A DNA stretch of 58,714 bases from Spirochaetales bacterium (GTDB lineage Bacteria; Spirochaetota; Spirochaetia; SZUA-6; JAFGRV01). How positions within the stretch are numbered: position 1 is the first letter of the stretch; every line of letters begins with the position of its first letter. Location: NCBI GenBank assembly GCA_016930085.1, contig JAFGHO010000128.1, positions 1 to 58,714 of the forward strand, read 5' to 3'. Shown piece by piece: positions 2,241-58,714 of this stretch. A program made the position numbers and the translations under genes. A model generated the notes under the pieces. That model did no database searches and was not told where the DNA came from. It saw only the letters and a list, made by a program, of their open reading frames with translations.

Positions 2241-3734
2241 CTACGGGCAAAATCCATTCACAAGCCCGACATAATATTGGGCGATTAAAAGAGCGTCGAC
2301 GATGTTGATGGTTCCGTCACAGTTCGTATCCGCACGTGATGTGTCGAAACCGGCCGGTTCGAGGCCCACGTAATATTGCGCCGTAAGTAGGGCATCGACA
2401 ATATTGATGTTACTGTCGGCATTGACATCACCCAATGAAGCGGGGGTGGTCGGTACCGCTGTGGCCGGAACGGGCGTCGTCGAAGGCGGCTGGGTTGCAC
2501 TTCCGTCAACCCTGATAAAACTCCACCGCTGGCTTTCCGCCCCGTCGCTGTAATAACTCCACTGGTGGAGGTTTGCGCCGTTTGTCACCGAACACGCCTG
2601 TACGTCGATAAGCTTGCCGCTGTTTCTGTTGATGATTTGATAATAATCGCCTTCACGTTCAAGCCGCCACTGCTGATTGTTCTGGTAACTCCCGCACGTG
2701 CCCTGCTGGATATTACCGCCGTCGGCTGTCGACCAGTCCTGAACCTGAACGCACATACCGCTTCCCCTGTTGACGATCTTATAATACCCGCTTTCTTCCG
2801 CCGCTTCCAGCATCCACTGCTGGTACTGCCCTCCCGTATCGTCCCACTGCTGGATATTGGCGCCTGCCGATGCCGATGAATCGGCGACCTCCATACATTT
2901 CCCCGAATGACCGGCCAGTACTTTGTACCATACACCGGTTACCGGCGTTTCACTCACGGGCGGCGGTTCGGGCGGAATAACGACCATGGCTTCACCGGTA
3001 ACGGCCGCCGTATAGGAGTTGAGGGTAAGCCCCTCGCCATCGGCCCAGATTTCGAAACCGGCTTCCATTGCATCAAGGTACCAGGAGGTATCGATATAAC
3101 CTCGTGAGGTAGAATCATTGATGAATGCCTTGAAATCGAGATTCGAGACACTCGAAGTCCCGCTCGTCCTGATATAGGCGATATAATTCCAGTCCCAGTC
3201 CGCATAATAGACGTCCCATGATGCACCGCCGATCGTTACCGTTCCGACCTGTGACCCGCCGGGACCGGCACCGCCCCCCCGGTTGATCCATATCATCAGT
3301 TCGGCTCCATTTGCGGGGTCTCCCCCGCCGGTCCGGCTGAACCATGCTTCGAAAGCGGCATTCCAGGTACCTCCCGCGCCCGAAGTGCCGATACTCATGC
3401 TGAAACGAGCCGAATCGATCTTTCCGACCTGAATCGGCATATTCCTGTTGATATCGGCCGTACAATGTCCCCAGTGGCACCCTTTGTAAATGACGGGATA
3501 CGCCTTCACCTGGCTTCCGTTGGTATGTGTGGAATAAGTGATCTCAAAACCGGTCCCGTTCACCTCGATACACTGCTCCCCCGCGCCTTCTCCCCAGATA
3601 TTATTCATGACCGTGTATTCCCCGTTGTTGATGTCCGTGGTATCATCCCCGCACAATTCGACTGCCTGAAGCATTACGGCGGTACAAAGCAATACCGTTA
3701 TCATGAGAAGATAGGTGTTCATAGACGTTTTCAT
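2241..3734 (-). CDS. secreted GH12 endoglucanase with ricin-type lectin and dockerin domains
   Basis: Modular secreted glycoside hydrolase of 497 residues. The order is signal peptide (1-24), GH12 catalytic domain (about 25-245), Pro-rich linker, ricin-B/CBM13-type beta-trefoil (about 268-410) with three QQW-like repeats, Thr/Pro linker, and a C-terminal dockerin (about 432-497) with two INIVDALL segments. The GH12 signature NNIWG is at 44-48. The likely nucleophile is E145 in ELMIW and the likely acid/base E228 in GFEIW. GH12 enzymes are retaining endo-beta-1,4-glucanases or xyloglucanases. The trefoil would bind sugar and the dockerin would dock to a cohesin. GGAG lies eight bases before the ATG. 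A second GH12 gene with a different domain order lies at 12398-13618. Confidence 0.92.
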   Translation of the reverse strand: MKTSMNTYLLMITVLLCTAVMLQAVELCGDDTTDINNGEYTVMNNIWGEGAGEQCIEVNGTGFEITYSTHTNGSQVKAYPVIYKGCHWGHCTADINRNMPIQVGKIDSARFSMSIGTSGAGGTWNAAFEAWFSRTGGGDPANGAELMIWINRGGGAGPGGSQVGTVTIGGASWDVYYADWDWNYIAYIRTSGTSSVSNLDFKAFINDSTSRGYIDTSWYLDAMEAGFEIWADGEGLTLNSYTAAVTGEAMVVIPPEPPPVSETPVTGVWYKVLAGHSGKCMEVADSSASAGANIQQWDDTGGQYQQWMLEAAEESGYYKIVNRGSGMCVQVQDWSTADGGNIQQGTCGSYQNNQQWRLEREGDYYQIINRNSGKLIDVQACSVTNGANLHQWSYYSDGAESQRWSFIRVDGSATQPPSTTPVPATAVPTTPASLGDVNADSNINIVDALLTAQYYVGLEPAGFDTSRADTNCDGTINIVDALLIAQYYVGLVNGFCP

Positions 3735-9856: not shown

Positions 9857-10774
9857 TTACGTGCCGGACAGGGTAAAGGCGATAATTTCACCGGCGACGG
9901 CTTTTACCACGGCATCGGGGACGCCGTCTTCATGTTTCGATTTCGGCCGCATATCGCATGAGGGGTTCACATAATCGATGATGACAAATTGGTTGTTTTT
10001 ATTTTTAGTGATTTCTGTTGAAAAAAATTGCAGATCGCAGATCCGCGCAATTTTCTCGACGATTGTAAACAACTCGTGTAATTGATAGGTTTCGATTTCT
10101 TCGGGCAGGAGTTCTTCGTAGATGTGGGATGTGTCATTCCACCAGACACAATGTATGGCTCCGCAGCAATAGAACCCCCTGAACCAGAATCGTTTTCCAT
10201 CGGCTTCATAGGGAATAATTTTTTCCTGCAGCAGGTATTTATCGGATTTGAACTCCTGACGTGCCATTAAAATATCGTATAAACGTTCGGCACCGTCGAC
10301 GATACCGATACCACCCCCGGTAATCACCGCCGGTTTGATGATGAACGGATGGCCCAACCGATAGAGATCCTCGAGGGAGAGATAACATTTTTCCTTTGAA
10401 TCATATGGCGGAAGAATGATCGTAAAGGGGGTGATCAGGTGATGGGATATAAACTCGAGATGCATCGTCGCCTTGTCCAGCGCCCATTCGATCTTGTGGA
10501 CCGGGTCCAGCACGCGGATATGTTTCCCCGCGGCGAGGTGCTGCAGTCCGATAAACGATGGGGTTGTATCCGATGCACGATCGATATAAAAATCAAAGGA
10601 AACCTTATCCTGTTGAAGCAGGGTGTAGACATCGTCGAGATTTTTCGGATGGATATAATAGGCCGAAAGCCCGCGGTCTGCGGCGGCGGCCTCGATCATA
10701 TGAAAGAAATCCAGATCATACTCCCAGTCGGAAGCCATTGCGATGTGATAATGATTCGGGTTGCCGTTTTTCAT
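9857..10774 (-). CDS. ATP-grasp enzyme, RimK/peptide-ligase like
   Basis: Soluble enzyme of 305 residues with an ATP-grasp layout. The N-terminal domain (about 1-115) holds DKATMHLEF, where a catalytic domain of this fold normally begins. Next comes HPFIIKPAVITGGGIGI, with the nucleotide-binding Lys and Gly-rich loop, then LLQEKI with the Glu that contacts the base. The metal-binding end is FVIIDYVNPSCDMRP, where the usual Asp/Asn pair is recognisable. ATP-grasp ligases join a carboxylate to an amine or thiol through an acyl phosphate. It follows the GNAT gene by 15 bases and is the third gene of a likely operon. The substrate is unknown. Confidence 0.8.
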   Translation of the reverse strand: MKNGNPNHYHIAMASDWEYDLDFFHMIEAAAADRGLSAYYIHPKNLDDVYTLLQQDKVSFDFYIDRASDTTPSFIGLQHLAAGKHIRVLDPVHKIEWALDKATMHLEFISHHLITPFTIILPPYDSKEKCYLSLEDLYRLGHPFIIKPAVITGGGIGIVDGAERLYDILMARQEFKSDKYLLQEKIIPYEADGKRFWFRGFYCCGAIHCVWWNDTSHIYEELLPEEIETYQLHELFTIVEKIARICDLQFFSTEITKNKNNQFVIIDYVNPSCDMRPKSKHEDGVPDAVVKAVAGEIIAFTLSGT

Positions 10775-10789
10775 GACACCGTTACCATT

Positions 10790-11314
10790 TTACAAGACCT
10801 TGACAAAAATGACCTTGGAGTCGCCATCCCGGTAAAAATCCTTTAAAACGGCATCCTCTTTGTATCCCTTGTTTCGATAAAAGCACCGTGTCGGTTCGTA
10901 AGGGGCGGTCGAAGATGTTTCTATGTATATTCGTTCCCCGCCCATACCACGAATCTTCGCTTCCGTTTCACGTATCAGAATCGTCCCGATTTTCCTGCCT
11001 TGAAGCGCTTTATCAACGACAATCCAGTAAAGGTCGTAACGATTTTTGGTAAAGGGAACGGGACCGTATATAGTGAAACCATTCACCCTTCCTGAAATTT
11101 CGGAAAAGAGAAAATGATAACCGCTCGCATGTCCTTTCACCAGCCATTCATCCAGCAATTCGACCGCGATCGCAACCTCATCCTCCCGGAAAACACCTGA
11201 TCCGCGTGCCAGACTCCGGATCGTCTCCCTGTCCATTTCTATCGGGGTATCCCGCAGTACTATCTCCGGCCCTATATCCGTTTGATTATTTTTTGAATTA
11301 CCGCAAGACCGCAT
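10790..11314 (-). CDS. GNAT acetyltransferase within an ATP-grasp operon
   Basis: GNAT-fold N-acyltransferase of 174 residues. The acetyl-CoA-binding motif is visible as LQGRKIGTILIRETE, followed by the beta5/alpha4 region and a final CFYRNKGYKED segment typical of GNATs. AAAGGA lies nine bases before the ATG. The start overlaps the end of the upstream D-Ala-D-Ala-ligase-like gene by 17 bases, and the next ATP-grasp gene follows by 15 bases. The three genes are therefore almost certainly one transcript. It may acylate an amino acid or peptide made or used by the two ligases; that is inference. Confidence 0.85.
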   Translation of the reverse strand: MRSCGNSKNNQTDIGPEIVLRDTPIEMDRETIRSLARGSGVFREDEVAIAVELLDEWLVKGHASGYHFLFSEISGRVNGFTIYGPVPFTKNRYDLYWIVVDKALQGRKIGTILIRETEAKIRGMGGERIYIETSSTAPYEPTRCFYRNKGYKEDAVLKDFYRDGDSKVIFVKVL

Positions 11315-12287
11315 ACGCTATCGTCCTTTCGACAAACTTGTTTATCGTCAACCCCGACCTGTGCAAGGCGGCAACGAATCCGCTGTCCTGTGTCAGGCAG
11401 GGGTTCGCATTTATTTCCAACACCCACGGACGGTTGTTTTCATCGATCCGGAAATCGATCCTCGCATACCCGCGTAAGGAAAACAGACGCCAGCATCGAC
11501 GGCATATCGCTTTTACATCGGCGATCATCGACTCATCATCTGAGCTAAACTCGAAGGAACGCCGGGTGTTTTGATATTCGTAGGAGGTTTCCTCCCATTT
11601 CGAACAATACCCGACAATCTTCGGTTTACCCTCGGGATAGCCGGTAAAGAGAATTTCAGCGGGCTCGAGTATCCTGGGAGCCGATGAATCCTGGATGATG
11701 GAGATATTAATTTCCCTGCCGTCCATGTAGGCTTCGATAAACCATGGATAAAAAGCGGGATTGAAATCTAATGAAGCGAGTCTCTTTTGAAGGTCCTCTT
11801 TCGAGAAAAAGACCGAATGATCGTCGAGGCCTATCGAAGCATGTTCCCATACCGATTTGATAATATAGGGCGGATCGAAAAGCGCGTCAATGTCAATGTC
11901 CTTCGTAAGCGGGACCCATGACGGTGTCGGAATATCATGCACCGACATGATGTCTTTCGCTATGAGTTTGTTCGATGTCAGCATGATCGCTTCCGACCCG
12001 CATCCGGTATAGGGGATTCCCAGTTCGTCGAGAATCGAGGGGATAAAAACAATATAGTGGCCTTTGTTTCCGATTGATTCTACCAGATTAAAGGCGACAA
12101 ACGGTTCGCATTCACGAAGCGCTTCGACGACACGGTCGAGACAAAGGGTGACCGGAATACGCGTCACACGATAACCGAGTTCTTCGAGGATTGCGGATAT
12201 CGATGCTGTCTGAAGGAGGACGTCTTTTTCATCTGCACGGGCGTCGGGCTCGACGTCACCGTACAAAACAGCGACATGATTGTTCAC
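11298..12287 (-). CDS. D-alanine-D-alanine-ligase-like ATP-grasp protein
   Basis: Cytoplasmic ATP-grasp ligase of 329 residues related to Ddl. A Rossmann-like N-terminal domain (1-110) carries FNLVESIGNKG, close to the Ddl segment. TGCGSEAIMLTSNKL follows, then the ATP-binding YIIKSVWEHASIGL loop and the C-terminal FRIDENNRPWVLEINANPCLT, with metal ligands Glu and Asn. The usual Ddl Ser-Lys-Tyr active-site set is not obvious, so it may use amino acids other than D-Ala. The start codon is GTG at 12287; no ATG with a better site is available. It is the first gene of a three-gene operon with a GNAT and a second ATP-grasp enzyme. Confidence 0.85.
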   Translation of the reverse strand: MNNHVAVLYGDVEPDARADEKDVLLQTASISAILEELGYRVTRIPVTLCLDRVVEALRECEPFVAFNLVESIGNKGHYIVFIPSILDELGIPYTGCGSEAIMLTSNKLIAKDIMSVHDIPTPSWVPLTKDIDIDALFDPPYIIKSVWEHASIGLDDHSVFFSKEDLQKRLASLDFNPAFYPWFIEAYMDGREINISIIQDSSAPRILEPAEILFTGYPEGKPKIVGYCSKWEETSYEYQNTRRSFEFSSDDESMIADVKAICRRCWRLFSLRGYARIDFRIDENNRPWVLEINANPCLTQDSGFVAALHRSGLTINKFVERTIAYAVLR

Positions 12288-12397: not shown

Positions 12398-13618
12398 CTA
12401 GTTACAGGAATAGCTGTTACAGATAAACTCCAGGTTACCCGGTGAAGAGGTAATCTCGAAACCAAACTGGACCCTGTTGACGATCACATCGCCGAACCAC
12501 CCCTGATCCCTTATCCATTCCAGAAGCGCCTTGATATTGACGGTGCCCGAGGTGGTGTTTGCCGTTCTGACGAATGAAATAACCGTAAAACCGATATTTC
12601 CCTTGTAGATGTTCCATGTATGTCCCCCGACACTTTTATTTGTCGCCTCCGGTATCGGTGTTCCGTCATCGTCCCAGCCGCCGGCAATCGGTCCGACGGC
12701 GCCCGTCTTGTTCATCCATATCATGATTTCAAACTGATCTCCGCCGGCCCAGACATCGTATGTCGTGGCGTACGCCCCGCTTCCCGGTACGGTCACGTTA
12801 AAACTGCTCGAGAGGCTTCCTATCGCGCTCAGGCTTTTTTCGATATTCTTTGACACATTCGGATACGACTTGACGCCGCTCGTTGAGGGATGATCCGCTT
12901 CGACACCCCAGTTGCTGTAGGATTCCGCCCAGATACATTGCGTTCCGGCACCGTCGCCCCAGATGTTGTTGTAGATGGTGTACCCCCCGTTTTCCCAGTC
13001 GTCCCACTCGCCGCAGGCGACCCACGGGCCTTCACCCATTCTGCACTCGTCGTTGCACGTCCCGATCAGGACCCAGGTATCGTATTCACTCGTCGAATAT
13101 TCTTCCGGATTCTGATCGTATGAAAAATAGCTGTTCCTGTACAGATTGCAGTTATACTGGACGAGGGTCCCGGATTCGTCATAGACGACGTTCGAGTTCC
13201 AGACCGGATACCCCGCGCAGCTTACTCCTGAACCGGACGGCGTGGATCCTGGGTCCGGTGTGGGAGCGGCGGTGACTGTTTCCGTCGGCGTGGGTGCCGG
13301 GGTATCGGTTGCGAATGCCGTCGGTTCAGGGGTTGTGTCGCAGGATAATGAATCGATGAGTCCGACATAGTATTGCGCGATCAACAAGGCGTCCACGATA
13401 TCGACGGCCCCGCTGCAATTTGTGTCCGCCCTGTCGCGTTCGAAAGGCGAGGGATTCAATCCCACATAATACTGTGCCACAAGGAGGGCATCGACGATAT
13501 TGATCGTGTTATCGCCGTTAACATCGCCCGGCGTTTGTGCCGAGAGCCCGGTCGCGAAAAAAAGTAAAAGCGCGCAGACGATTCCCGGACATTTATTGGT
13601 AAACGTGTTGTTCCTCAT
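12398..13618 (-). CDS. secreted dockerin-CBM-GH12 endoglucanase
   Basis: Modular secreted hydrolase of about 406 residues. Signal peptide, then an N-terminal dockerin with two NIVDALL(V/I)AQYYVGL-type repeats, then a Thr/Pro-rich linker. Next comes a small Trp/Tyr-rich module (PVWNSNVVY to YDTWVLIG) resembling CBM5/12 carbohydrate binders, and last a GH12 domain. The GH12 part shows YNNIWGDGAG, the nucleophile region FEIMIW and the acid/base region FGFEI. Start at 13618 because GGAG lies seven bases upstream; the longer frame to 13666 lacks a site. The domain order is reversed relative to the GH12 gene at 2241-3734. A clear intrinsic terminator follows. Confidence 0.92.
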   Translation of the reverse strand: MRNNTFTNKCPGIVCALLLFFATGLSAQTPGDVNGDNTINIVDALLVAQYYVGLNPSPFERDRADTNCSGAVDIVDALLIAQYYVGLIDSLSCDTTPEPTAFATDTPAPTPTETVTAAPTPDPGSTPSGSGVSCAGYPVWNSNVVYDESGTLVQYNCNLYRNSYFSYDQNPEEYSTSEYDTWVLIGTCNDECRMGEGPWVACGEWDDWENGGYTIYNNIWGDGAGTQCIWAESYSNWGVEADHPSTSGVKSYPNVSKNIEKSLSAIGSLSSSFNVTVPGSGAYATTYDVWAGGDQFEIMIWMNKTGAVGPIAGGWDDDGTPIPEATNKSVGGHTWNIYKGNIGFTVISFVRTANTTSGTVNIKALLEWIRDQGWFGDVIVNRVQFGFEITSSPGNLEFICNSYSCN

Positions 13619-13878
13619 ACGATACTCCTTTTTTCTCTTTGAACATACCTTAACAATACAAATCATAGGTCATCTTCAGTATATCACATATCCCTTTGAA
13701 ACCTATCAGTGAATTTCATTATTTTTGTATAGGAAATTTCTCTGTATGATTTGTCGACAAAAATAATGCGGAATGCCGTTTTTCCTGTTCACGACCTCAA
13801 ATTTATTCTTTCTGTCATTGAATTAACAAGAAATATGTATTATTTTCTCATCAGATATTAATCATTGTGAGGTCTGTC

Positions 13879-45109: not shown

Positions 45110-45663
45110 ATGATGTCAAAGCCACTTCCGGTAGTCTTCCTGATTGTTCTTTGTATTGCCGCGCCACTTCAAGCCAGCTGCTTCTGTGACTTCGATAATA
45201 GCGGTATGGTCTCGATCGTTGACGCCCTCATTGTTGCCCGCTACGACGTGGAAACGAATGTCCTGATAGATCTCGAAGACGCGGATGTTAATCTTTCCGA
45301 GACCGTCGATATCGTCGATGCACTCCTGATCGCCCGATATTACGTAAAGCTTATCACTGAATTCAACAGAATCGACGATACGCCGTGCAATCCGGAAGCC
45401 AGTGCCGCGGCAATACTCGTCCCGGCTTATCTTGCGAAACACTCATCGCCTGGATTCAACGGCGTGATCTCGGGGTGAAAGTGAGGACACGGATCGCAGA
45501 TCGCGGACACACTTCAAATATCCTTATGGGTTTCGACTGCTTCGTCAACCGTCTTCACGATACAAGCGGAAAATGGAACGGGCTGACCGGTCTTGATTAC
45601 GAACACGACAGCATATTCACGCCCGAACAGCTTTCGTTTGCGAACATCGATATCTCGTTATAG
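45110..45663 (+). pseudogene. broken dockerin-GH26 mannanase-like gene
   Basis: A secreted dockerin gene damaged twice. The first frame (45110-45478) has a signal peptide, a dockerin pair with degenerate SIVDAL and DIVDALL repeats, and the GH26 start SSPGFNGVISG before a stop. A second frame (45385-45663) continues with MGFDCFVNRLHDTSGKW and GLDYEHDSIFTPEQLS, segments like those near the N-terminus of GH26 mannanases. A single frameshift around 45450-45480 joins them. The gene then stops after about 90 GH26 residues, where the family needs about 300, so the catalytic glutamates are gone. The truncation lies at the left edge of the AT-rich island. Confidence 0.75.
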
Positions 45664-45848
45664 ATGTCAGACAGGCACAATCGTTCCGGTGATTTTCAAA
45701 GTCTTTATTTTATCATTTTTATTTTCGACATCTATATTTTTTCAGGGTAATTGATACTTTTTATATAGTGGGATATTATTACAGCCGAATAGTCGTGTTT
45801 TTATTTAAAATTATGAAATCTTGATACGGAGGTATTCAGGAGATAATT

Positions 45849-48770
45849 ATGAATAAACTAAATCTGGAAATTATCAGACTGATAGAAAAACTGAAAACGG
45901 AGAAAATCATTCCGATGATTCACGGTACCGATCTCTCGTTGTTTGGTGATCAGGGAGACGAATTGATCAAATTCATTCAAAGCTACAGTGTTTTAAAGAA
46001 ACCGGAGAATATCCGGCAGGTTTTGCTATGGAAACTGAATATGCTTGAAAACAGAAACCGGCCTGAAATCGGGGGGGTGAAGTCCAAAGATATTTTCCGG
46101 CCGCTTTCAGGGATAGATAACGCGGCGGCCGAACTCCTCTATAACAGTATATTCAATCAGAAAGAATTCCTGAGTACACTGGAAAATCCGATCGAGATAG
46201 TCCTTTTCAGAAGGGGGAGAAGCGGAAGGGCACTGACAAATTTGCTGAAGGCCCTTCCGAACGTCAATACAACCATTCTTCTGAGCGGTACCGATGATTC
46301 CGGGAGCTGGTTCGAAGGTTCACGGCTGTTCAGGACCCCCGGTATTCCCGGATTGGGAAAGGCATTGCTCGATCTCGCAGGGGATCGCCACGTCAAGGAA
46401 TTCCTTTCAATTGAAATTACCAATACAGGTGAAAATATTTCGGTTTCTTTTAACAACCTTATTCACCGTTTGAAAGATCCGGGCAATAATCATTATGAAA
46501 TCCGAAATAATTCTATCAGAAAAGCTTTTTTTGCCGCGTTAAAAATTGACATAGTCAAAAGAAAATTAATAAGATCATATCTAGACTTTTTCCGTAGAGA
46601 TTGTAAAGATGCACTTTCTTCACTAGAATGCATACCATTCCGCAGCATTATTATACAAGGCGCCTATTATTATTACAGAGAGAAGAATAAAAATGTGTCC
46701 TGGAAAGAGATCATTGACGAATTGAGTACTAATTTATTCAGCCTTGGAGAAGGAAGCAAGGTTTTTTTTGTGACGGAGGAAAGGCAGCATCTTGTCGCAC
46801 TCGATGCAATGGGCACACTCTATTTTTCTGAAAATGCGATAACCTATTATCATGACACTTTCCATGATGATATCCCGTTTATCGGGATGTGGCTTATAAA
46901 CGAAAGTGTTGATGACAATTTCATCAACTCACTTGTCAGTCATATTGAAGGAAATTACTCCGGAGCACAAAAAATAATTGATGATATGGATATTGCTGCC
47001 GTTCCGGAACCATTCAGAGAAAGAACACAAAGCACAATCAGACGTTTCGACATAAAATACCTCGATGACATCAAAAAATATATGGATAGAAAAAGTTCAA
47101 ATAACGCCGGAATTTCAAAAGAATTGAAACTTGAAGATGAGGTCGTTGGAATTCTGAGGCGGGCCGATATTATCATTTTTTCCGATGCATATCTTGAAAC
47201 AAATATCGCGGGCTCACTCCTTGTCCCGGATTTAAAGGATGTTCTTAAAGGAACCTCAAATTTGAAGATATGTCTTCTGGGCATGGATTCGGATGACATC
47301 GATGAGATCCGGGCTCAATTAAAGGCTGAAAGAAATCTGGAAAATATCTACCGGTATCTTGTGTATAATTTAAATCCCCTAAAGAAAAATGATTGGAAGG
47401 AATTGCATCAATTCATCAATTATACGATCGGTGTTATTGGAGATTCTTTGGACAGTAATATTCATAATTTCACGGCAGATACAGTTTTTACTCAATATAT
47501 AGATAAGGCGAAAGATTCCAGGTATGGTTTCTTTCTGGCAACAGCTCAAGCCGAGATAATACTTAGTCTGCTGGGCATTACAAAAGCGGGTTTTGTCGTC
47601 GATTCCCAATACGGGCTTATGTCACAGAATATCCAATGCACATTAAATGAAAACGAAGAAAACAATCAACGAATGAAATATTCGGGATTCGGTCTTTTCG
47701 ACCTGCAACAAGTTAAAAGAAGTATTCAAAATGTAAGCAGTAATTTATATGACGGATGCTTTTGTTTCGATGTCGATATGACGATGCTGCCGAAAAAAGC
47801 GGAATTCCTTACCGATTACCCTGAGCTGGCCTATCTGTTTACTCAACTCCTGCGTATTCATGTTCCTGTTGCCATCATTTCAGGCAACAGCAAGGAAGAG
47901 CAAATACCGCGGATTATCAAGGCAATACAACAGGAAATGAAAAACGACAAATTCGGTTTCGAGAATCTGACATTCTATGTCGACGGCGGCGCAACAAAGA
48001 TCAAATTCGACAATAATGGAGACTGTATCGAAGATACTGAAAGGAGACATAATAACAAAATTGATCCGGAAAGCTATAAAACCATTAAAAATGCGATCGA
48101 TTCAGCATTAAAAGACATTAAAAATGATATCAATATAATTATAGAGGATAAAAAGCAACAGGAATTATTTAAAAAAGAAGCAGCCGAGAAATACCAGGAC
48201 CTCGATCTTATTCCATTCTGGGATGTTGAATCATGGGAGCCCGAATGGGTGACCCCGAAAGAACTCCAGGATAAAAAAAAGAAAAAGGAAAAGATAGTTT
48301 TTCCGTGGGTGGAAGTGCGGGGTAAAACGGAAGATGACAACACAATTGCCAGTATCGCCATCAAACCGACTCCAATGGTCGAGGGCGATATGGCGTTTGA
48401 CATCCGTGATGAACTGCAACGCCGTATAATAGAAAAGCTTGGTAAGGAAAATCAGTTCAATATCCGTTCGGGCGGACGGTCCACAACCGATATTACCCTT
48501 AAAGGAGCCGATAAAACGGCCGCGGTAAAGGATTTCATCGATTCAAATGATCTGGCCCAAAGAAAGGTTTACTATTTCGGGGATGAATTTTATGAAAGGG
48601 ATTCACAGCTTGGAAACGACGAAGTCATCGCCAGGGACCCGAATCTTTCATTTGTGCAAACTTTCGCCGTTAATTCCGACAATATCGACGGAGCCCATGA
48701 TAAAACAATCTGGATCGGCCGTTCTCCGCAGGCGGTACTCGAGTTTCTCGAAAAAGTAGTACCGGAATAG
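45849..48770 (+). CDS. divergent CofD/YvcK-like protein fused to a HAD phosphatase
   Basis: Protein of 973 residues. Residues about 115-180 match the start of the CofD/YvcK fold: FRRGRSG at 120-126 replaces the usual Gly-rich loop, D149-D150-S-G-S fits DDGGS, and PGIPGLGKALLDLA (164-177) fits PGDxxxxLLALA. Residues 436-475 (ADIIIFSDAYLE, SLLVPDLKDVL) match the later nucleotide-binding segment of the same family. The region between and an N-terminal helical lead are unassigned. From about 636 a HAD-type phosphatase begins, with motif I D641-V-D643-M-T645, motif II S678-G-N, and motif IV G911-D912-E913 with G-N-D at 922-924. GGAG lies seven bases before the ATG. Enzymatic role of the first half is doubtful because its loop is altered. 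Composition is AT-richer than the flanks. Confidence 0.75.
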   Translation: MNKLNLEIIRLIEKLKTEKIIPMIHGTDLSLFGDQGDELIKFIQSYSVLKKPENIRQVLLWKLNMLENRNRPEIGGVKSKDIFRPLSGIDNAAAELLYNSIFNQKEFLSTLENPIEIVLFRRGRSGRALTNLLKALPNVNTTILLSGTDDSGSWFEGSRLFRTPGIPGLGKALLDLAGDRHVKEFLSIEITNTGENISVSFNNLIHRLKDPGNNHYEIRNNSIRKAFFAALKIDIVKRKLIRSYLDFFRRDCKDALSSLECIPFRSIIIQGAYYYYREKNKNVSWKEIIDELSTNLFSLGEGSKVFFVTEERQHLVALDAMGTLYFSENAITYYHDTFHDDIPFIGMWLINESVDDNFINSLVSHIEGNYSGAQKIIDDMDIAAVPEPFRERTQSTIRRFDIKYLDDIKKYMDRKSSNNAGISKELKLEDEVVGILRRADIIIFSDAYLETNIAGSLLVPDLKDVLKGTSNLKICLLGMDSDDIDEIRAQLKAERNLENIYRYLVYNLNPLKKNDWKELHQFINYTIGVIGDSLDSNIHNFTADTVFTQYIDKAKDSRYGFFLATAQAEIILSLLGITKAGFVVDSQYGLMSQNIQCTLNENEENNQRMKYSGFGLFDLQQVKRSIQNVSSNLYDGCFCFDVDMTMLPKKAEFLTDYPELAYLFTQLLRIHVPVAIISGNSKEEQIPRIIKAIQQEMKNDKFGFENLTFYVDGGATKIKFDNNGDCIEDTERRHNNKIDPESYKTIKNAIDSALKDIKNDINIIIEDKKQQELFKKEAAEKYQDLDLIPFWDVESWEPEWVTPKELQDKKKKKEKIVFPWVEVRGKTEDDNTIASIAIKPTPMVEGDMAFDIRDELQRRIIEKLGKENQFNIRSGGRSTTDITLKGADKTAAVKDFIDSNDLAQRKVYYFGDEFYERDSQLGNDEVIARDPNLSFVQTFAVNSDNIDGAHDKTIWIGRSPQAVLEFLEKVVPE

Positions 48771-48783
48771 CCCCGACAGCGGA

Positions 48784-49869
48784 TCACATGTCCGTACCGG
48801 GACAATCGACAAGACCGGCATTATACAAAGCCGATAGCTGTGTGGTATACTCCTTGGAATTCTTCTTTATCCTGCCGCTTTTTATCATGTCCCGGAAGCG
48901 ATACAGGTCTCCGATACCTGAGCGGCGGATATAATGCAGGACCTCCGGGTGTATTTCCTGTTCAACGAGGGGGGTATCGCAGGCTATTTCATGCCGGATT
49001 TTTGACGAACTTACCCTGTCGTTTTGCGTCAAGTCATCGGCAATAAACATTCCCCCATTCCATAAATCAAGTAACCAACGTTGTTTTCCGATCAGATTCA
49101 AATCAATCGGAAAATCCTTTCTGTTTGAATAAAACACCTGTATGCCGTGTTTGAATAGTGTATGTAAGACAAGCTCTTTTTCGTTTTCATTGCCGTATTT
49201 ATTTATCTTGTCAGACCCCGTTATATAAACCCATTGTACGCGGGGATTCATGGCAAAGAGAAGGCAAAAAGCGGCTATATCCGTTATATTCCTTATAATG
49301 GTTAATGCCATTGTACCGGATACAGCACCTTGCTTCAAAGAGGAGGGGAGCGGCCATAATGCGGCCTTATATATCTCGGCCATATCAAATCGAAGAGGAC
49401 AATACCGTATCCAGGTTCCCCATTTATCATTTGCATACACCTGTGCCATATGCAATCGATGACGGAAAGCGGTGATTTCCGGTTTTTCCGGCACCGTGCC
49501 TCCGATGAGAAACAGAACGCCATCCAATTTCAGCTGAACGACGGCGTTTAGGGCCGCAGTTATATGGCCATAGTGAACGGGATCAAACGAACCCGGCATT
49601 ATTCCCACATATGCAGAGGAACTGCATATTTCATCATTGTGGTGACGTGATGCGGCTTCAGCGGCCTCATGAAGGATATAGGCGAATGGAAGTCCGGTGT
49701 TTCGTTTCTCCATACGATTTTCAATTTCTTTTGTAAAGGTGCCATACAGATTCGATTTTTCCTTATTATGAATCCAGATATCACTCCATTGCAAGGGGAT
49801 GAATGTGTCGGCTGCCCTGTTTCTATATATCCATTGCAGCCTGGTTTCGGCTGCCTGTACCCCGGTCAT
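48784..49869 (-). CDS. NadD-like nucleotidyltransferase with N-terminal extension
   Basis: Cytoplasmic nucleotidyltransferase of 361 residues. The core has the ATP-binding GSFDPVHYGH motif (93-102) with HxGH, and SSSKIRHE near 290, equivalent to the ISSTxIR of nicotinate- or NMN-adenylyltransferases. Such enzymes transfer AMP or CMP to a phosphorylated acceptor such as NaMN, NMN or phosphopantetheine. About 85 residues precede the core and about 45 follow, unlike housekeeping NadD (about 200 residues). No ribosome site lies before the ATG; the promoter at 49877-49906 predicts a leaderless transcript. It faces the CofD-HAD gene end to end, 13 bases apart, and diverges from the TIR gene. Confidence 0.78.
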   Translation of the reverse strand: MTGVQAAETRLQWIYRNRAADTFIPLQWSDIWIHNKEKSNLYGTFTKEIENRMEKRNTGLPFAYILHEAAEAASRHHNDEICSSSAYVGIMPGSFDPVHYGHITAALNAVVQLKLDGVLFLIGGTVPEKPEITAFRHRLHMAQVYANDKWGTWIRYCPLRFDMAEIYKAALWPLPSSLKQGAVSGTMALTIIRNITDIAAFCLLFAMNPRVQWVYITGSDKINKYGNENEKELVLHTLFKHGIQVFYSNRKDFPIDLNLIGKQRWLLDLWNGGMFIADDLTQNDRVSSSKIRHEIACDTPLVEQEIHPEVLHYIRRSGIGDLYRFRDMIKSGRIKKNSKEYTTQLSALYNAGLVDCPGTDM

Positions 49870-49876
49870 GGTATCT

Positions 49877-49906
49877 ATTCTATCAAATGTATAATCATTA
49901 TGTCAG
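49877..49906 (-). promoter_or_regulatory. promoter giving a leaderless NadD-like mRNA
   Basis: Minus-strand CTGACA (49901-49906), 18-base spacer and TAGAAT (49877-49882). Its expected start of transcription falls on or beside the ATG at 49869, which has no ribosome-binding site. The 319 bases of 49870-50188 hold only this and the divergent TIR promoter. Confidence 0.5.
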
Positions 49907-49961
49907 TGATAATTAAAGAAAAATGATCATCTTATTATTCGCTTTATATTAAAAAAAATAT

Positions 49962-49991
49962 TTGAAATTCTGTTCGATTTGTGATTATAAT
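49962..49991 (+). promoter_or_regulatory. promoter of the TIR-domain gene
   Basis: TTGAAA (49962-49967), 18-base spacer and a perfect TATAAT (49986-49991). Transcription would start near 49998, giving an unusually long leader of about 190 bases before the TIR start at 50189. I see no known riboswitch in that leader. Confidence 0.7.
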
Positions 49992-50188
49992 GATCCGTTG
50001 AAATATCAAGAGAGGTTCGATATTGATTATTTAATACAAACCACTTCCGTTCAAGGCACTCCCCTGGAGATCGTTGAAAAGACTTTAGCAGATTTCTTGT
50101 TAATGGCTATGCCGTTTATATCCGGGTATATTTTTTATTCCCGGTTAAAAGGCAATTGAATCAAAACGGATAAAGGAGTCTATTCTAC

Positions 50189-51268
50189 ATGGTTTTTATC
50201 AGTTATTGTCATGAAGATACGGTATTGGCAAGAATCATCTATCATATTTTCATAAAAGAAGGGATTGACTGTTTTTTTGCCGAAAGGAATATCCATATCG
50301 GTTCATACTTTGATAAGGAAATATTATCTAAGATACGAAGTGCCCGGTTGCTCATCGTTTTATGGAGTGCTTATTCAATAAAATCCACATGGGTGCAGCA
50401 GGAAATAGGTATTGCAAAGGGACTTGAAAAACCGGTTTGGCCTATCGCAATAGATGACATGAGTGTCAATAACACCTCGTTGTTCAGAGGCTTTATCTTC
50501 AATACACAGGGATCATATCTGCATACAGCCGAAGATCCTTGTGAAAAGATCAGGGCGCTTGCGATAGAAATAAAGAAAAAGATGACAGACGATTCCTGTT
50601 ACAGCAACTTCAGTCCAAAAACCGATCAATTTTATATCGGTCTGGAGAATCGTACAAAATCATTACTGGGTATTATTCAAGAACAAAAAAGGCACATTGA
50701 CAATGACTATATAATACGCTCCAAGTCGAATTATTCGTCGTTTTCATTTTCCGATGATTTATCATGCTGGTACAACAACTCGGCAGAAATGACGTCATTG
50801 CTTATGGCCGAACAGAAAGCACTATCGGAAATGATAAAAATCTGTCGAATAAAGGTGATTATATGGCCCAAGAAATATAATAACGAATATATAAAGAAGA
50901 GACTAATAAATCTTATCGATTTTTTGGAAGCCAACAAGGATTTTGAAAGAGTACGATTCGTTTTGGGTTTCCCGAATACGATGGAGAGCTATGGAAGATT
51001 TTCCTACAATAGAAATATTTTTATTTTCGATCATAATATAATGCTCAACGGCATTAAAACTTCGGGAACACCCGGTTTTGATGTGACAATCGTTTCTCAT
51101 CATACCACGACAATAAAAAATGAAATCAGCGCTTTTGATTCAGCATTCGAATCACTATGGAATTTACATAAACAAGAATGCTGTTCAACCGACAAGAATA
51201 CCGAAGCTGAAGAAATACGCGGATTTGTCATTAACTATTTAAAAAGGATAATGCCGCCCGGATGTTAG
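50189..51268 (+). CDS. TIR-domain protein with unassigned C-terminal domain
   Basis: Protein of 359 residues. Residues 1-130 are a TIR domain: VFISYCHEDTVLA box 1, then GIDCFFAERNIHIG, then LLIVLWSAYSIKSTWVQQEIGIA. The Glu equivalent to the catalytic residue of NAD+-cleaving TIRs is E72 in the W-V-Q-Q-E segment. Residues about 150-359 form a separate domain I do not recognise, ending in a helix with FDSAFESLWNLH; it could be the ligand sensor or a second effector. AAAGGAG lies ten bases before the ATG. Bacterial TIR proteins often act as NADases in phage defence or as signal-making enzymes. Its convergent neighbour is the Nudix-DUF89-YvcK gene, 20 bases away. Confidence 0.85.
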   Translation: MVFISYCHEDTVLARIIYHIFIKEGIDCFFAERNIHIGSYFDKEILSKIRSARLLIVLWSAYSIKSTWVQQEIGIAKGLEKPVWPIAIDDMSVNNTSLFRGFIFNTQGSYLHTAEDPCEKIRALAIEIKKKMTDDSCYSNFSPKTDQFYIGLENRTKSLLGIIQEQKRHIDNDYIIRSKSNYSSFSFSDDLSCWYNNSAEMTSLLMAEQKALSEMIKICRIKVIIWPKKYNNEYIKKRLINLIDFLEANKDFERVRFVLGFPNTMESYGRFSYNRNIFIFDHNIMLNGIKTSGTPGFDVTIVSHHTTTIKNEISAFDSAFESLWNLHKQECCSTDKNTEAEEIRGFVINYLKRIMPPGC

Positions 51269-51288
51269 GCGGAATACATATATACGGC

Positions 51289-54200
51289 TTACATCCCCCT
51301 TTCCAGCGCAATACGGAAAATACCCATGAGTGATTCGGGAATCAACCCCGGAAAATATTCTACACGCGTTGCACCTTTTGACTTGACTATTTTAACATTT
51401 TTACCTATTGAATCAACTTCGTGAATATTTCGCAGTTGTATCCCTTGTTTTAATAGGTAATCGAAGTCTTTTTTTGTAGCGTATAAAGCTCCGCGGTATC
51501 TTCCTTTTTCGCTTCTGTGAGAATACAATTCTTCCGGCTGGTCGAGGTAAGACAATATTTCCATTTCCATATCGGTAATATGATATTTCCTTATTATATC
51601 CTTGTTTTTATTCAGAAAATCGACATATTTATTCGGGAAACGCTTTGTCCCGTCCTTGAATTTTGCAAGATCCGGTTTTATCCATACATATTTTATTTTT
51701 TTCATCTCCCCTTCAAGTTCTTTTGCAATTATCCGTGGAACGACAATATCCGTGAAAATATCCGAAATCCTAATTTCACGGTTACATGATGTTAATTTAT
51801 TCTTTAGTTTTACGGAACAATATTTATTGACTACCTTTTCGATAAAGCGAACATGATCAGTAACGGTCATCTGCCTGGTTTCATCCATTTTCACATGGTT
51901 GAGAATGAGGATGCGCCGTTTATCCTGTGCCTCAAGAAACACATCGATGACTCCGGGGATGACAAGCTGAGAGAGTTGGCTGCTGATAAGAGAACCGGCT
52001 CCCATTATGATGAGTTCGGAAGATTTCAATAATCTTATATATTCCCTGTTGCTTTTTGGCGGTTTCCCAATCGGACTTACTATCCCTGTCATTTTTCTTC
52101 CGCCATTATGGGGGAATTTATCGATATACTTTTGACCGGTTATCCTGTTATTGACTCCGTCATAGGCATCTTTATACGCTTTTTTAATTAATCGGGGGAC
52201 GGGTTTTTCATAATCAAGATAAAGCGAGCATTCATCAAATGATACGGGAATCGACAATATCAATGGAGATAATGCAAGGGCTTTCTCAAGTATTATCAAG
52301 GCGGAAATTTGTTGTCTGGTATTTATTCTTTTCCTGTTGCCGAGTGCATCGAATAATTCAAATGCCGCGATAACATTCAAGTTTCGAATGCTTGAATCTC
52401 TCAGCGGTAAAATTGAACTGACACCTTTTAAAAAACGTTCGTCAATTATTCTGGCCAGATTTAGCTGATTAGAAACAAAAGAAAGGAAATCATCGGCTGT
52501 GCCGATATCAGATGTCGATGATAACAACTCATCACTTATTCGATTGATGACACCTTCAACCATCGATGGAGGATTTTCCGAAAAGCGGAACGACAGAATA
52601 GCCTGTTTCCCGTTGTTATCCATAGCGTCCTGAAGAATGGCGGCGAGATCACCCACTCCAAATACAAATCCACGTTCCTTTTTCAGTGCATTTTGTAACA
52701 AACCGGTACTACCCCCGTCATCGGTACATGGAACACCTGCGACTGTCGGTATCTTCAATTGTTTTAATGCCCTGAGGGTTACGGCACTAAATCCCCCTCC
52801 TCCTCCTATCGCAAATACAGGATAATGACGCTGTCGGAATTCCCGTATTTCTTTTTCTCCAGGTAATTCATCCATGATCCCTAATATGATGCTTGTAAAT
52901 GTCCGTTTGAGTTTTTTTGCCTCTATTTGTATACGCTTTATCGCTTCCTCCAGATTGCCACGGTATATGTATTTGACAATTAATTTAAAATTTTCATGTA
53001 GTATGGCTTTGACATAGTTTACCGTTGTCTGAAGAATGAAAGAAGATGTTTCATGAATACCGTTATCCTCGTCACTGAAACTGATAAAATGATCTACTCC
53101 GGGTGTCAACCTTACAAACCCGCATTCACCTTCCGCAGTATCGCCATGTATCGCCTTTGCGACCCGTCCATTTACCCTGAAAGCAATGAATACTGGTTTT
53201 TTCCATCCACGAATTTCAGCATATGCCTGGCCTTCAGCTACAATCACATCCGAAGCGGCAATTGCTTGCGCGACATCTCTATCCAGATTTGCCGGGTCAA
53301 GACCGTGGATACGCGGTCCGTTGTTGAGTATTTCAAACCGTCCTGTATATTGAACCAGGAGATTTCTAAAATAATCATCCAATGAATCCATGAGGATAAC
53401 TGTCTCATGATAGGATAAATCATTGCCCGGGAATCCTGACTTTGGAATAAATCTAATTCGTGCATGTTTATTCTGATCAAGTATCTCCTGGACGATTGCG
53501 ATACTGACAATGGCTTGTTCGGCCGTACCCGGAAGGTAAACAATATCTATAACAGGTTCATCCTTTATATATCGTTGATAAAAATCAGATAAAAAATGCA
53601 TTCCTCCGAGTTTTGGTGACAATTCCTGAATACTGAAACGGATATTTTCACTAATATCTTTTTCTCGCAGCGTTTTCTGAAAATACGGATTATTAAAATC
53701 TGCTTTAGATGCACTCAGCCCAAGCTTAATTAAATAATGTAAACGTTCAAATCCATTTTCCGGTATTTTCCCCTTATGATCATTAAAAAGTATCTTTCCC
53801 AGCTCAAGGCATTGTTTTGTTATTGTCCGAGTAGGATATTTCAATACTTCACGGGAAATAATATCGGAATCATTCTCCAGCCATCTCAATACCGCACAGC
53901 GGGCAACTTCGATATCCTGCAGATTACTCAATGAATCCCTCAATCGCGAACCGTTTGATAAAGGCAATTCCATAAAATCCGATACAAATTGTTTTATTTT
54001 TGGTTCAACCGCCTTTAAATAATCACGAAATTCATTATTCCGATTATATGCAATCGATTCCAGCAAATTGTCAATATATATTTCGCAGGGATCATTATAT
54101 TTTTCTTTCCAGAATGAATTGTCTAAAAAACGTCTCCGAAATTGTCCCATTTGATAAGAACCAGCCATTTGATTGGTGCCATGCCGAAATATTTCATATA

Positions 54201-54960
54201 CCGTCGAGATGTTCGCCTTCTTGCCCGGGGGATCATAAAAATAATTCAGCAGGCTGATTGTAAAGCCTTCTTCGTGATCGAAATAGCGGGAAACAAACGG
54301 ATATTTGATGAGAAATCTTTTTGAACTTTCCATCCTACATTCTTTACAGTAAACCTCTAGCTTTTTACGAATCGAATGTATCGAAAGTGAAGAATATATT
54401 CCGCTTGCTAATACAGAAGCAGAGTGTGAATAAAAGGCTTTTATAAGCTGTTCCCATGACCAAAACTCGATGTGGGAAACTTCGCCCATACACCCTTTCA
54501 CTTTCAATTCTTCCGGTGACAATGCGGCTTGTTCCGTTGCATGGTGAATTATCTGATCTTCATGTTGGCCTGTTATTTTTAAAATGTATATTGTTTTTCT
54601 TTCAAGATTAATAATACCTTTTTCCGGTATGATTACACGTTCGATCACTTCATCATCAGTTGAAATGGCTTCGAGTTGATCTTTTTTTATTTTTAAAGAT
54701 ATTTCTTCATATATTTCTTCTACTGCTGCATCAAGAGGATTTTGACCGGATTTGAGGTGTCCCCCGACGATATCGTAATATCCGGGAAACAAATCTTTGT
54801 GTTTGCTTCTCTGTTCTATCAATATTTCTCCGCAAGAGTTTATGACAAATATCGATATAGTCCGATGCCATATCCCCTTTTGATGTGCTTCAGATCTTTT
54901 GACCGGTGTATCGAGTGGATTTCCATTTTCATCCAATACATCCAAATATTCTTCCTTCAT
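51289..54960 (-). CDS. triple fusion: Nudix, DUF89 and YvcK/CofD-like domains
   Basis: Protein of 1223 residues, three enzyme folds in one chain. Residues about 1-175 are a Nudix domain of the IPP-isomerase-like type. Its Nudix box (66-88) keeps the metal glutamates E81-E82 and E85-E86 but has Gln in place of the first Glu and Ser in place of the last Gly. Residues about 210-625 are DUF89/ARMT1-like: GND at 512-514 and EGQAYAEIRG (576-585) fit, but the DN of the usual DNAGE motif is lost in YLPGTAEQ. Residues about 710-1223 are YvcK/CofD: GGGGG (719-723), DDGGSTG (747-753), MGAGSL (986-991) and NHVKMDET with TDHV (1021-1036). GGAG lies seven bases before the ATG. All three folds act on nucleotide-linked or phosphorylated metabolites. 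Confidence 0.82.
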   Translation of the reverse strand: MKEEYLDVLDENGNPLDTPVKRSEAHQKGIWHRTISIFVINSCGEILIEQRSKHKDLFPGYYDIVGGHLKSGQNPLDAAVEEIYEEISLKIKKDQLEAISTDDEVIERVIIPEKGIINLERKTIYILKITGQHEDQIIHHATEQAALSPEELKVKGCMGEVSHIEFWSWEQLIKAFYSHSASVLASGIYSSLSIHSIRKKLEVYCKECRMESSKRFLIKYPFVSRYFDHEEGFTISLLNYFYDPPGKKANISTVYEIFRHGTNQMAGSYQMGQFRRRFLDNSFWKEKYNDPCEIYIDNLLESIAYNRNNEFRDYLKAVEPKIKQFVSDFMELPLSNGSRLRDSLSNLQDIEVARCAVLRWLENDSDIISREVLKYPTRTITKQCLELGKILFNDHKGKIPENGFERLHYLIKLGLSASKADFNNPYFQKTLREKDISENIRFSIQELSPKLGGMHFLSDFYQRYIKDEPVIDIVYLPGTAEQAIVSIAIVQEILDQNKHARIRFIPKSGFPGNDLSYHETVILMDSLDDYFRNLLVQYTGRFEILNNGPRIHGLDPANLDRDVAQAIAASDVIVAEGQAYAEIRGWKKPVFIAFRVNGRVAKAIHGDTAEGECGFVRLTPGVDHFISFSDEDNGIHETSSFILQTTVNYVKAILHENFKLIVKYIYRGNLEEAIKRIQIEAKKLKRTFTSIILGIMDELPGEKEIREFRQRHYPVFAIGGGGGFSAVTLRALKQLKIPTVAGVPCTDDGGSTGLLQNALKKERGFVFGVGDLAAILQDAMDNNGKQAILSFRFSENPPSMVEGVINRISDELLSSTSDIGTADDFLSFVSNQLNLARIIDERFLKGVSSILPLRDSSIRNLNVIAAFELFDALGNRKRINTRQQISALIILEKALALSPLILSIPVSFDECSLYLDYEKPVPRLIKKAYKDAYDGVNNRITGQKYIDKFPHNGGRKMTGIVSPIGKPPKSNREYIRLLKSSELIIMGAGSLISSQLSQLVIPGVIDVFLEAQDKRRILILNHVKMDETRQMTVTDHVRFIEKVVNKYCSVKLKNKLTSCNREIRISDIFTDIVVPRIIAKELEGEMKKIKYVWIKPDLAKFKDGTKRFPNKYVDFLNKNKDIIRKYHITDMEMEILSYLDQPEELYSHRSEKGRYRGALYATKKDFDYLLKQGIQLRNIHEVDSIGKNVKIVKSKGATRVEYFPGLIPESLMGIFRIALERGM

Positions 54961-55251
54961 GATTACACTCCGACTTGATTTCTTTAATAATTAATTCGGT
55001 AATAAAATAATAATCGCGTTACTGACACCGACATTAAGACAACAACAGACATTGAGATTTTGTGCAAAAATCCAAAGAATGGCCCATGCTCAAGAGACCA
55101 TGCAAAATCGATCGGCGTCCATGCTTTTTTTTCATGCACCGTCTTTTCTCCTATCCGTTTCAATACCTCCGTTAACGGCTATATTTAAAAAAAGGACACA
55201 TCAAACACCGCGAAGGCGTCATTCGGGTTATATGCGAAAAAACCTCTTTTG

Positions 55252-57320: not shown

Positions 57321-57407
57321 CTTCTGGTACTATAGTAACATTAATCCTGAAATTCAACTATACGCTGTGAAATTGCATTGGAATGCGTCGATCATGGAGA
57401 AAAAATT

Positions 57408-58714
57408 ATGAAAACGATGTACCGGACTCTTCTACGCTTTCATCTTCTATTAATCGCGTCTTTTCTATTGTTCGCTTTTTTATCTTGTGTTCCCAAAAAC
57501 CCGTCTTCCGGACAATGGATACAGACCGGCGGCCCCTATGGCGGCTACATCCATTGCTTCGCGGTCAGCGGCATTAATATGTTTGCCGGAACCGAAGGCG
57601 GCGGTGTTTTTCTATCAACGGACAATGGTGAGACCTGGCGTGAAGTCAATTCGGGTTTGACGAGTAAAAATGTCTATTCCCTTGCAGCAAGCGGCCCGAA
57701 TATCTTTGCCGGTACCGGAAGCGGCGTTTTTTTTTCCGCCGACAATGGTGCGAACTGGAAGCCGATCGATTCATCGCTGATACATACGTATACCTCCTCC
57801 CTTGAAGCAAGCGGCCCGAATATCTTCGCCGGTACCGGAAGCGGCTTTTTTCTTATCACCGGCGATGGCACTCACTGGCGTGCGGTCACCGCGGGTCTGG
57901 CATACATGAATGTCACCTCCATCGCCATAAACGGCGACAATATGTTTGCCGGAACCGAAAGCGGAGGCGTTTTTCTTTCAACAGATATCGGTGCAAGCTG
58001 GATTCCGGTGAATTCGGGTTTGACGAACACCCATATAAATTCCCTTGCCCTGCAAGGGACGACGATTGTCGCAGGGACCTACGGCGGCGGTGTTTTCCGT
58101 TCCACCGACAATGGCGCAAGCTGGACCGCGGTCAATTCGGGTTTGACAAACGAATATATCTATACGCTTGCCGTAAGCGGAACGAATATTTTCGCCGGAA
58201 CCCCGGGCGGTGTTTTTCTTTCCTCCGATACCGGCGCAAACTGGAAGAAGGTCAATGCGGGCCTGACCAATACATTTGTCTACGCTCTCCTCATAAACGG
58301 CCCGAATATCTTTGCCGGAACGAACGGCGGGGGAGTTTTCAGTTCCGCCGACAACGGTGTAAACTGGAGGAAGGTCAATGCCGGTTTGACGAATACCTTT
58401 GTCGGATCAATTGTTGAAAACGGCAAATACGTTTTCGCCGGAACGAACGGCGCCGGTGCGTTTCTTTCCTCAGACAATGGCGATCGTTGGGAAGAGATCA
58501 ATTCCGGTTTGACCAATCCGTATGTCTTCTCTCTTGCTGCGAGCGGACCGAATATTTTCGCAGGGACCAATGGCGGCGGCGTTTTCCTTTCCTCAGATAA
58601 TGGAGAAAGCTGGAAAGCGGTCAATGCCGGTTTGACAAACACCTGTGTCTACAGTCTTGCAGTAAGCGGTGAAAATATTTTTGCCGGAACGTTCGGCGAC
58701 GGCGTTTTCCTTTC
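57408..58714 (+). CDS. lipoprotein with about ten BNR/YCF48-like propeller repeats (incomplete)
   Basis: Open frame that runs off the window's right edge; 435 residues are visible. GGAG lies eight bases before the ATG. The signal peptide ends with Phe-Leu-Ser-Cys (Cys about residue 27). Then come at least ten repeats of about 39-41 residues, each with a GxNxFAGTxGGGVFLS core, DNGxxW (Asp-box) and V(N)SGLT ending. This is the pattern of sialidase Asp-box or YCF48/photosystem II stability-type beta-propellers. DNA copies are similar, so recombination could change repeat number. The function is probably binding to a surface or polysaccharide; no catalytic residues are seen. Confidence 0.85.
   Translation, partial: MKTMYRTLLRFHLLLIASFLLFAFLSCVPKNPSSGQWIQTGGPYGGYIHCFAVSGINMFAGTEGGGVFLSTDNGETWREVNSGLTSKNVYSLAASGPNIFAGTGSGVFFSADNGANWKPIDSSLIHTYTSSLEASGPNIFAGTGSGFFLITGDGTHWRAVTAGLAYMNVTSIAINGDNMFAGTESGGVFLSTDIGASWIPVNSGLTNTHINSLALQGTTIVAGTYGGGVFRSTDNGASWTAVNSGLTNEYIYTLAVSGTNIFAGTPGGVFLSSDTGANWKKVNAGLTNTFVYALLINGPNIFAGTNGGGVFSSADNGVNWRKVNAGLTNTFVGSIVENGKYVFAGTNGAGAFLSSDNGDRWEEINSGLTNPYVFSLAASGPNIFAGTNGGGVFLSSDNGESWKAVNAGLTNTCVYSLAVSGENIFAGTFGDGVFL

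Follow-up and report, generated by a model that had tools for sequence, protein, structure and literature searches.

The minus strand of the window (the whole stretch of DNA analysed here, 58,714 nucleotides from a Spirochaetales bacterium) carries an unbroken frame of 1223 amino acids, P0001, which runs from an ATG at 54960, with GGAG just upstream, to 51289 with the stop codon included (Table 1). The plus strand across the same positions is full of stops, and the window contains no N. As the earlier note had read it, P0001 joins three folds in one chain; the Nudix and CofD domains are significant by Pfam, and the DUF89-like domain is supported by hhalign. The uniformly low GC3 of all parts of the protein (0.30–0.39) speaks against its having been pieced together from unrelated DNA. 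We take P0001 to be a true fusion in a single chain, of which we have one example. In our view it combines known domains in a new way, with the DUF89 site altered, and we make no claim to an unprecedented fusion.

Table 1. Genes, domains and the low-GC island around P0001 (positions in the window)
Feature	Coordinates	Strand	Basis
P0001, Nudix/DUF89-like/CofD-YvcK-like fusion protein	51289..54960	-	open frame, GGAG, Pfam/NCBIfam
P0001 residues 1-205 (Nudix ~1-150), YfcD/IDI-like	54346..54960	-	Pfam, PDB, alignment
P0001 residues 205-374, no family match	53839..54348	-	secondary structure from low-confidence model
P0001 residues ~375-602, DUF89/ARMT1-like, catalytic positions replaced	53155..53838	-	hhalign, invariant columns, Pfam
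P0001 residues 706-1060, CofD/YvcK-like	51781..52845	-	TIGR01826, PF01933, PDB, alignment
P0001 residues 1060-1223, C-terminal extension	51292..51783	-	no credible Pfam match
Low-GC island, ~9 kb	45800..55100	.	GC and GC3 of genes
P0002, 973 aa, divergent CofD-like + HAD-IIB phosphatase	45849..48770	+	Pfam/NCBIfam, hhalign, motifs
P0003, 361 aa, NadD-like nucleotidyltransferase	48784..49869	-	NCBIfam, PDB, motifs
P0004, 359 aa, TIR protein	50189..51268	+	TIR_2, ThsB_TIR, PADLOC, motif

The low-GC island

P0001 is one of four genes of a low-GC island that was overlooked in the earlier reading, together with its second CofD-like/HAD protein, its NadD-like enzyme and its TIR gene. The island genes have 36–46% GC and GC3 values of 0.35–0.48, compared with 44–52% and 0.51–0.66 for eleven other genes tested. 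By Pfam, the genes outside the island encode an alpha/beta hydrolase, a DinB protein, a dockerin protein and a GH10 xylanase. Neither tRNA genes nor clear repeats were found at the island flanks. The closest xylanase homologue in relatives sits near a contig start, and the empty site is unreadable there. The island, and P0001 with it, was probably acquired horizontally. P0002 and P0003 are convergent with a gap of 13 bases, as are P0004 and P0001 with a gap of 20 bases; because of these two convergent pairs, the four genes do not form one operon. Their proximity and shared composition may point to a joint function.

The CofD-like domain of P0002 (residues ~115–500; CofD E 0.0019) contains RRGRSG at 121 and TDDSGS at 148. 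Against a YvcK alignment that included P0001, hhalign gave 35% over 278 collinear columns, with shuffled sequences reaching at most 1.3%; when P0001 was left out of the alignment, a 56-column match remained at 36.5%. The HAD-IIB end of P0002 (HAD E 0.0013–0.0045) contains DVDMT at 641–645, GDE at 911–913 and ND at 923–924. P0003 matched NadD of NCBIfam with an E-value of 5e-13, over residues 86–144 only, and NadD proteins of the PDB with 3e-6. Its motifs GSFDPVHYGH (93–102) and SSSKIR (287–292) are separated by a large stretch. Unusual extra parts were also seen at both the N and C termini of this protein. P0004 matched TIR_2 (E 8.6e-16) and ThsB_TIR (E 1.2e-5) in Pfam as well as ThsB-like profiles in PADLOC, and has the Glu of WVQQEIG (E72); its C-terminal part of ~240 residues has no assigned family.

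Domains of P0001

The Nudix part showed a match to PF00293 above the cut-off (residues 32–100, E 4.7e-8), and its PDB matches were 2fkb, 1q27 and IDI proteins. It shares an N-terminal region, the Nudix fold and the metal-binding glutamates with the YfcD/DR_0079/IDI-type Nudix proteins, from which it differs in being fused and in the changed Glu, Arg and Gly positions of its box. When Nudix proteins from related genomes were aligned with P0001 (31–39% identity over ~90 residues; rows L002 and L055, read from the wrong strand, were ignored), its box was GGHLKSGQNPLDAAVEEIYEEISL, which does not match the full GX5EX7REUXEEXGU: the first Glu, noted as absent before, is Gln73, the Arg is Glu81 and the Gly is Ser88. 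In known Nudix enzymes the Glu of the box is paired with its Arg, which makes the loss of both notable. Glu82, Glu85 and Glu86, the usual Nudix metal ligands, are intact, so that the Nudix part may be an active hydrolase. The description of this domain as degenerate thus fits the frame of the box, where Glu, Arg and Gly are gone, but not the metal site, and we consider the part a possibly active hydrolase rather than a clearly degenerate one.

For the middle of P0001, PF01937 (ARMT1-like) scored 16.1 bits against a cut-off of 25 (E 0.0065) with the part alone, and was below the cut-off, at E 0.041, in the whole protein; the sole DUF89 protein found in a PDB search, 1xfi, had a non-significant E-value of 0.77. 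DUF89 proteins were gathered from spirochaete genomes and made into profiles of 25 and 30 sequences for hhalign. The profile of the short subfamily gave P0001 a score of 15.2 bits, whereas none of 500 shuffles exceeded 3.1. Over 207 collinear columns, hhalign gave 76.6% with the short subfamily and 85.2% with all DUF89 proteins, the best of 60 shuffles reaching 3.5% and the reversed sequence 0.6%. Run with all of P0001, hhalign gave 62%, as against no more than 2.2% for any of 102 other real frames. The profile of the long subfamily did not match P0001 in either the profile search or hhalign. A scan of viral contigs for alignment depth found no DUF89 proteins. From these comparisons the middle is taken as a remote homologue of the short DUF89 subfamily. 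AlphaFold run without an alignment gave very low confidence here (pLDDT 37 for residues 205–697 and 40 for residues 395–665). Residues 205–374, whose secondary structure comes from such a low-confidence model, are plausibly a linker or else a helical stretch at the N terminus of the DUF89 unit.

Across 17 spirochaete DUF89 proteins there is no variation at D154, N155, D162, N187, D188, K237, G238 and Q239, and these positions carry the chemistry of DUF89/ARMT1. In the alignment, IVYLPGTAEQAIVS of P0001 falls on LLYMGDNSGEIVLD, SGFPGND on SGPIIND, and VIVAEGQ on IIISKGQ. P0001 therefore has G478, T479, S486 and E576 in the columns of D154, N155, D162 and K237, and keeps N513, D514, G577 and Q578 in those of N187, D188, G238 and Q239. 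The missing DN pair and retained ND of the earlier note are thus borne out, as Gly478-Thr479 and Asn513-Asp514, respectively. Unlike the DUF89/ARMT1-like damage-control phosphatases (PF01937), with which it is collinear and shares the ND and GQ motifs, P0001 has replaced the Asp-Asn pair, the second Asp and the Lys of KGQ, and scores below the Pfam cut-off. The DUF89-like part is probably a pseudophosphatase. With a single sequence, and no relatives to tell whether the substitutions are conserved, such a verdict of inactivity is risky. It may be a case of a damage-control phosphatase turned scaffold.

The CofD/YvcK-like part scored 64.4 bits with PF01933 against a cut-off of 30 (E 1.3e-17 for the part alone, 9.9e-17 in the whole protein), and its PDB matches were the YvcK proteins 2o2z, 2hzb, 2q7x and 2ppv. 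TIGR01826 (YvcK) matched with an E-value of 2e-19, at 70.2 bits against a cut-off of 196, which places the part in the CofD superfamily but not in the YvcK subfamily. The three YvcK motifs listed before are found as GGGGG (719–723), DDGGSTG (747–753) and MGAGSL (986–991), and ET at 1027–1028 is kept together with GAGSL (987–991). Like YvcK/GlmR (TIGR01826, PF01933), P0001 has the GGGxG loop, DDGGS, GxGSL and ETxxxxxDH in order. In an alignment of P0001, a CofD-like protein and a pair of YvcK proteins, GAGSLISSQLSQL was found to replace GPGSLYTSILPNI, and MDETRQMTVTDHV to replace QLGETEGFSDADHL; GGGGG stands for GGGTG, TDDGGSTG is present, VGDLAA stands for PGDLRN, and RNL for GNL. The part is ~190 residues longer than the compared YvcK proteins and is fused to two other domains. 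The GAK-system CofD-like protein (TIGR04357) showed a weak match in the second half (E 0.0025), far below its cut-off (17 bits vs 340).

Mutating D40, D41 and N198 of Listeria GlmR together decreased its uridyltransferase activity ~100-fold (PMC10128056). The positions of D40 and D41 are kept as Asp747-Asp748, while N198, the Asn of LPNL (offset with 2o2z), corresponds by alignment to Gln998. In addition, T14 is replaced by Gly722 and the RN of PGDLRN by Ala773-Ala774. The C-terminal region, where the UDP-GlcNAc-binding residues Y265 and R301 lie, aligns unreliably to YvcK. The catalysis that had been ascribed to this part is possible: the Asp pair is retained, although Gln998 stands at the third position implicated in GlmR activity and the RN of PGDLRN and the glycine of GN are changed.

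Distribution of the fusion

No full-length relative of P0001 was found in 393 genomes of the phylum or in 395 of the class, and a search of 26 genomes of the order matched the Nudix part alone. Plasmids and phages gave matches of the Nudix part and chance-level YvcK matches, again with no full-length relative. Wider genome contigs and viral contigs gave none, in a search by short exact patterns, which miss most relatives below ~60% identity; outside the phylum, the absence of P0001 is backed by this weak test. Five viral pattern matches were glycine-rich chance matches. In none of these searches did the middle or C-terminal part of P0001 turn up in another genome. Three candidate fused frames were rejected: a 1437-aa frame of G406 was an activase-like protein, and those of G253 and G046 were, on reading their sequences, a DNA polymerase III alpha chain and a saccharopine-dehydrogenase-like protein. 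Because no relative was found, the conservation of any P0001 residue cannot be judged. P0002 had no relatives in 296 genomes of the phylum and 395 of the class, and P0003 was not found in related genomes. CofD proves rare here, lying above the cut-off in two of the 393 phylum genomes, one of which is the present one. The other phylum CofD (L056; G017:C59:6095-7114), in a 400-aa frame, matched with an E-value of 1.5e-40 and is GAK-like by its motifs.

Possible roles of P0001 and its neighbours

Among CofD-like proteins, to our knowledge, those of F420 synthesis are understood and YvcK/GlmR partly so, and no others. We tentatively favour the view that the island is a cluster of enzymes, P0001 among them as a single-chain fusion, which arrived by horizontal transfer and whose target is a nucleotide-linked metabolite. 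As to the activity and substrate of P0001, we infer that the CofD/YvcK-like domain would most likely bind an NTP or NDP-linked substrate via its Asp-Asp metal site, and would perform, or sense, nucleotidyl or phospho transfer. The Nudix domain would most likely hydrolyse the diphosphate link of that substrate, or of a side product, and the DUF89-like domain, having lost its phosphatase chemistry, would be a ligand-binding or structural scaffold. P0001, the CofD-like/HAD phosphatase and the NadD-like enzyme would together build, modify or degrade a small molecule linked to a nucleotide.

Another reading, to which we give a rather low probability, sees in the island a conflict module that is centred on NAD or directed against phages: the TIR protein would use up NAD+ or turn it into a signal, and the NadD-like, Nudix and CofD-like proteins would restore, edit or detoxify nucleotides. 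NadD-like and Nudix families, both present here, are often NAD-related. The ThsB-like profile matches and catalytic-type Glu of P0004 and the low-GC, sporadic nature of the island are also consistent with such a module. However, partner genes of Thoeris or other TIR defence systems were not matched by PADLOC, whose defence profiles fitted P0004 and the Nudix part of P0001 alone; beyond the latter and a chance-level match, P0001–P0003 fitted no PADLOC system. A literature search gave no described CofD-like/TIR system, the flanks have neither tRNA nor clear repeats, and the TIR gene is convergent with P0001.

A role of P0001 in supplying cell-wall precursors, as a regulator or accessory enzyme of the YvcK/GlmR type whose Nudix and DUF89 domains act as additional sensors of UDP-sugars or sugar phosphates, is unlikely. 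YvcK/GlmR proteins are indeed the closest characterised relatives of its CofD part, and UDP-GlcNAc is a ligand of GlmR (PMC7525490) as well as its product from UTP and GlcNAc-1P (PMC10128056). Against this stand the score far below the YvcK cut-off, the altered GGGTG, PGDLRN, GN and LPNL motifs, the neighbourhood without rapZ/yvcJ or whiA, and the location of P0001 in an island rather than among core genes.

It seems to us similarly improbable that P0001 is a foreign gene in decay, fused by accident and with the functions of its domains lost. No relatives were found, the DUF89 catalytic residues are gone, and the Nudix and CofD parts carry substitutions; decay could account for the changed residues equally well. 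The 3.7-kb frame, however, is free of stops and frameshifts, the Nudix metal-binding glutamates and the CofD Asp-Asp are kept, and the three neighbouring genes are likewise open with intact motifs. A mis-assembly of separate genes, conceivable in a genome of 135 contigs, is highly improbable in view of the single frame through all junctions, the uniform GC3 and the N-free window.

Returning to the enzyme cluster, a further step would be a pathway, so far undescribed, whose product is a cofactor or signal linked to a nucleotide. Two divergent CofD-like enzymes, a NadD-like enzyme, a HAD phosphatase and a Nudix/pseudo-DUF89 scaffold would make it up, and the TIR protein would use or sense the product; we hold this to be doubtful, and a claim for a new metabolite, from one example without relatives, is weak. 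Two divergent CofD-like proteins beside a nucleotidyltransferase, phosphatase-type domains and a TIR gene are nevertheless a testable lead to a new nucleotide-linked metabolite.

Elsewhere in the window, dockerin-like repeats (NIVDALLxAQYYVGL) were seen at 45110–45478 on the plus strand and at 79–1137, 2241–3734 and 12398–13666 on the minus strand, one of these proteins carrying a glucanase-like part; the protein at 45110–45478, the only one of them run against Pfam, is Dockerin_1. Two adjoining ATP-grasp-like proteins of 305 and 329 aa, named by reading (9857–12287, minus strand), are a possible ligase pair. A further protein, the beginning of which lies at 57378–58712 on the plus strand, contains numerous repeats that resemble one another (AVSGxNIFAGTxGGGVFLSxDNGxxW) and runs past the window end.
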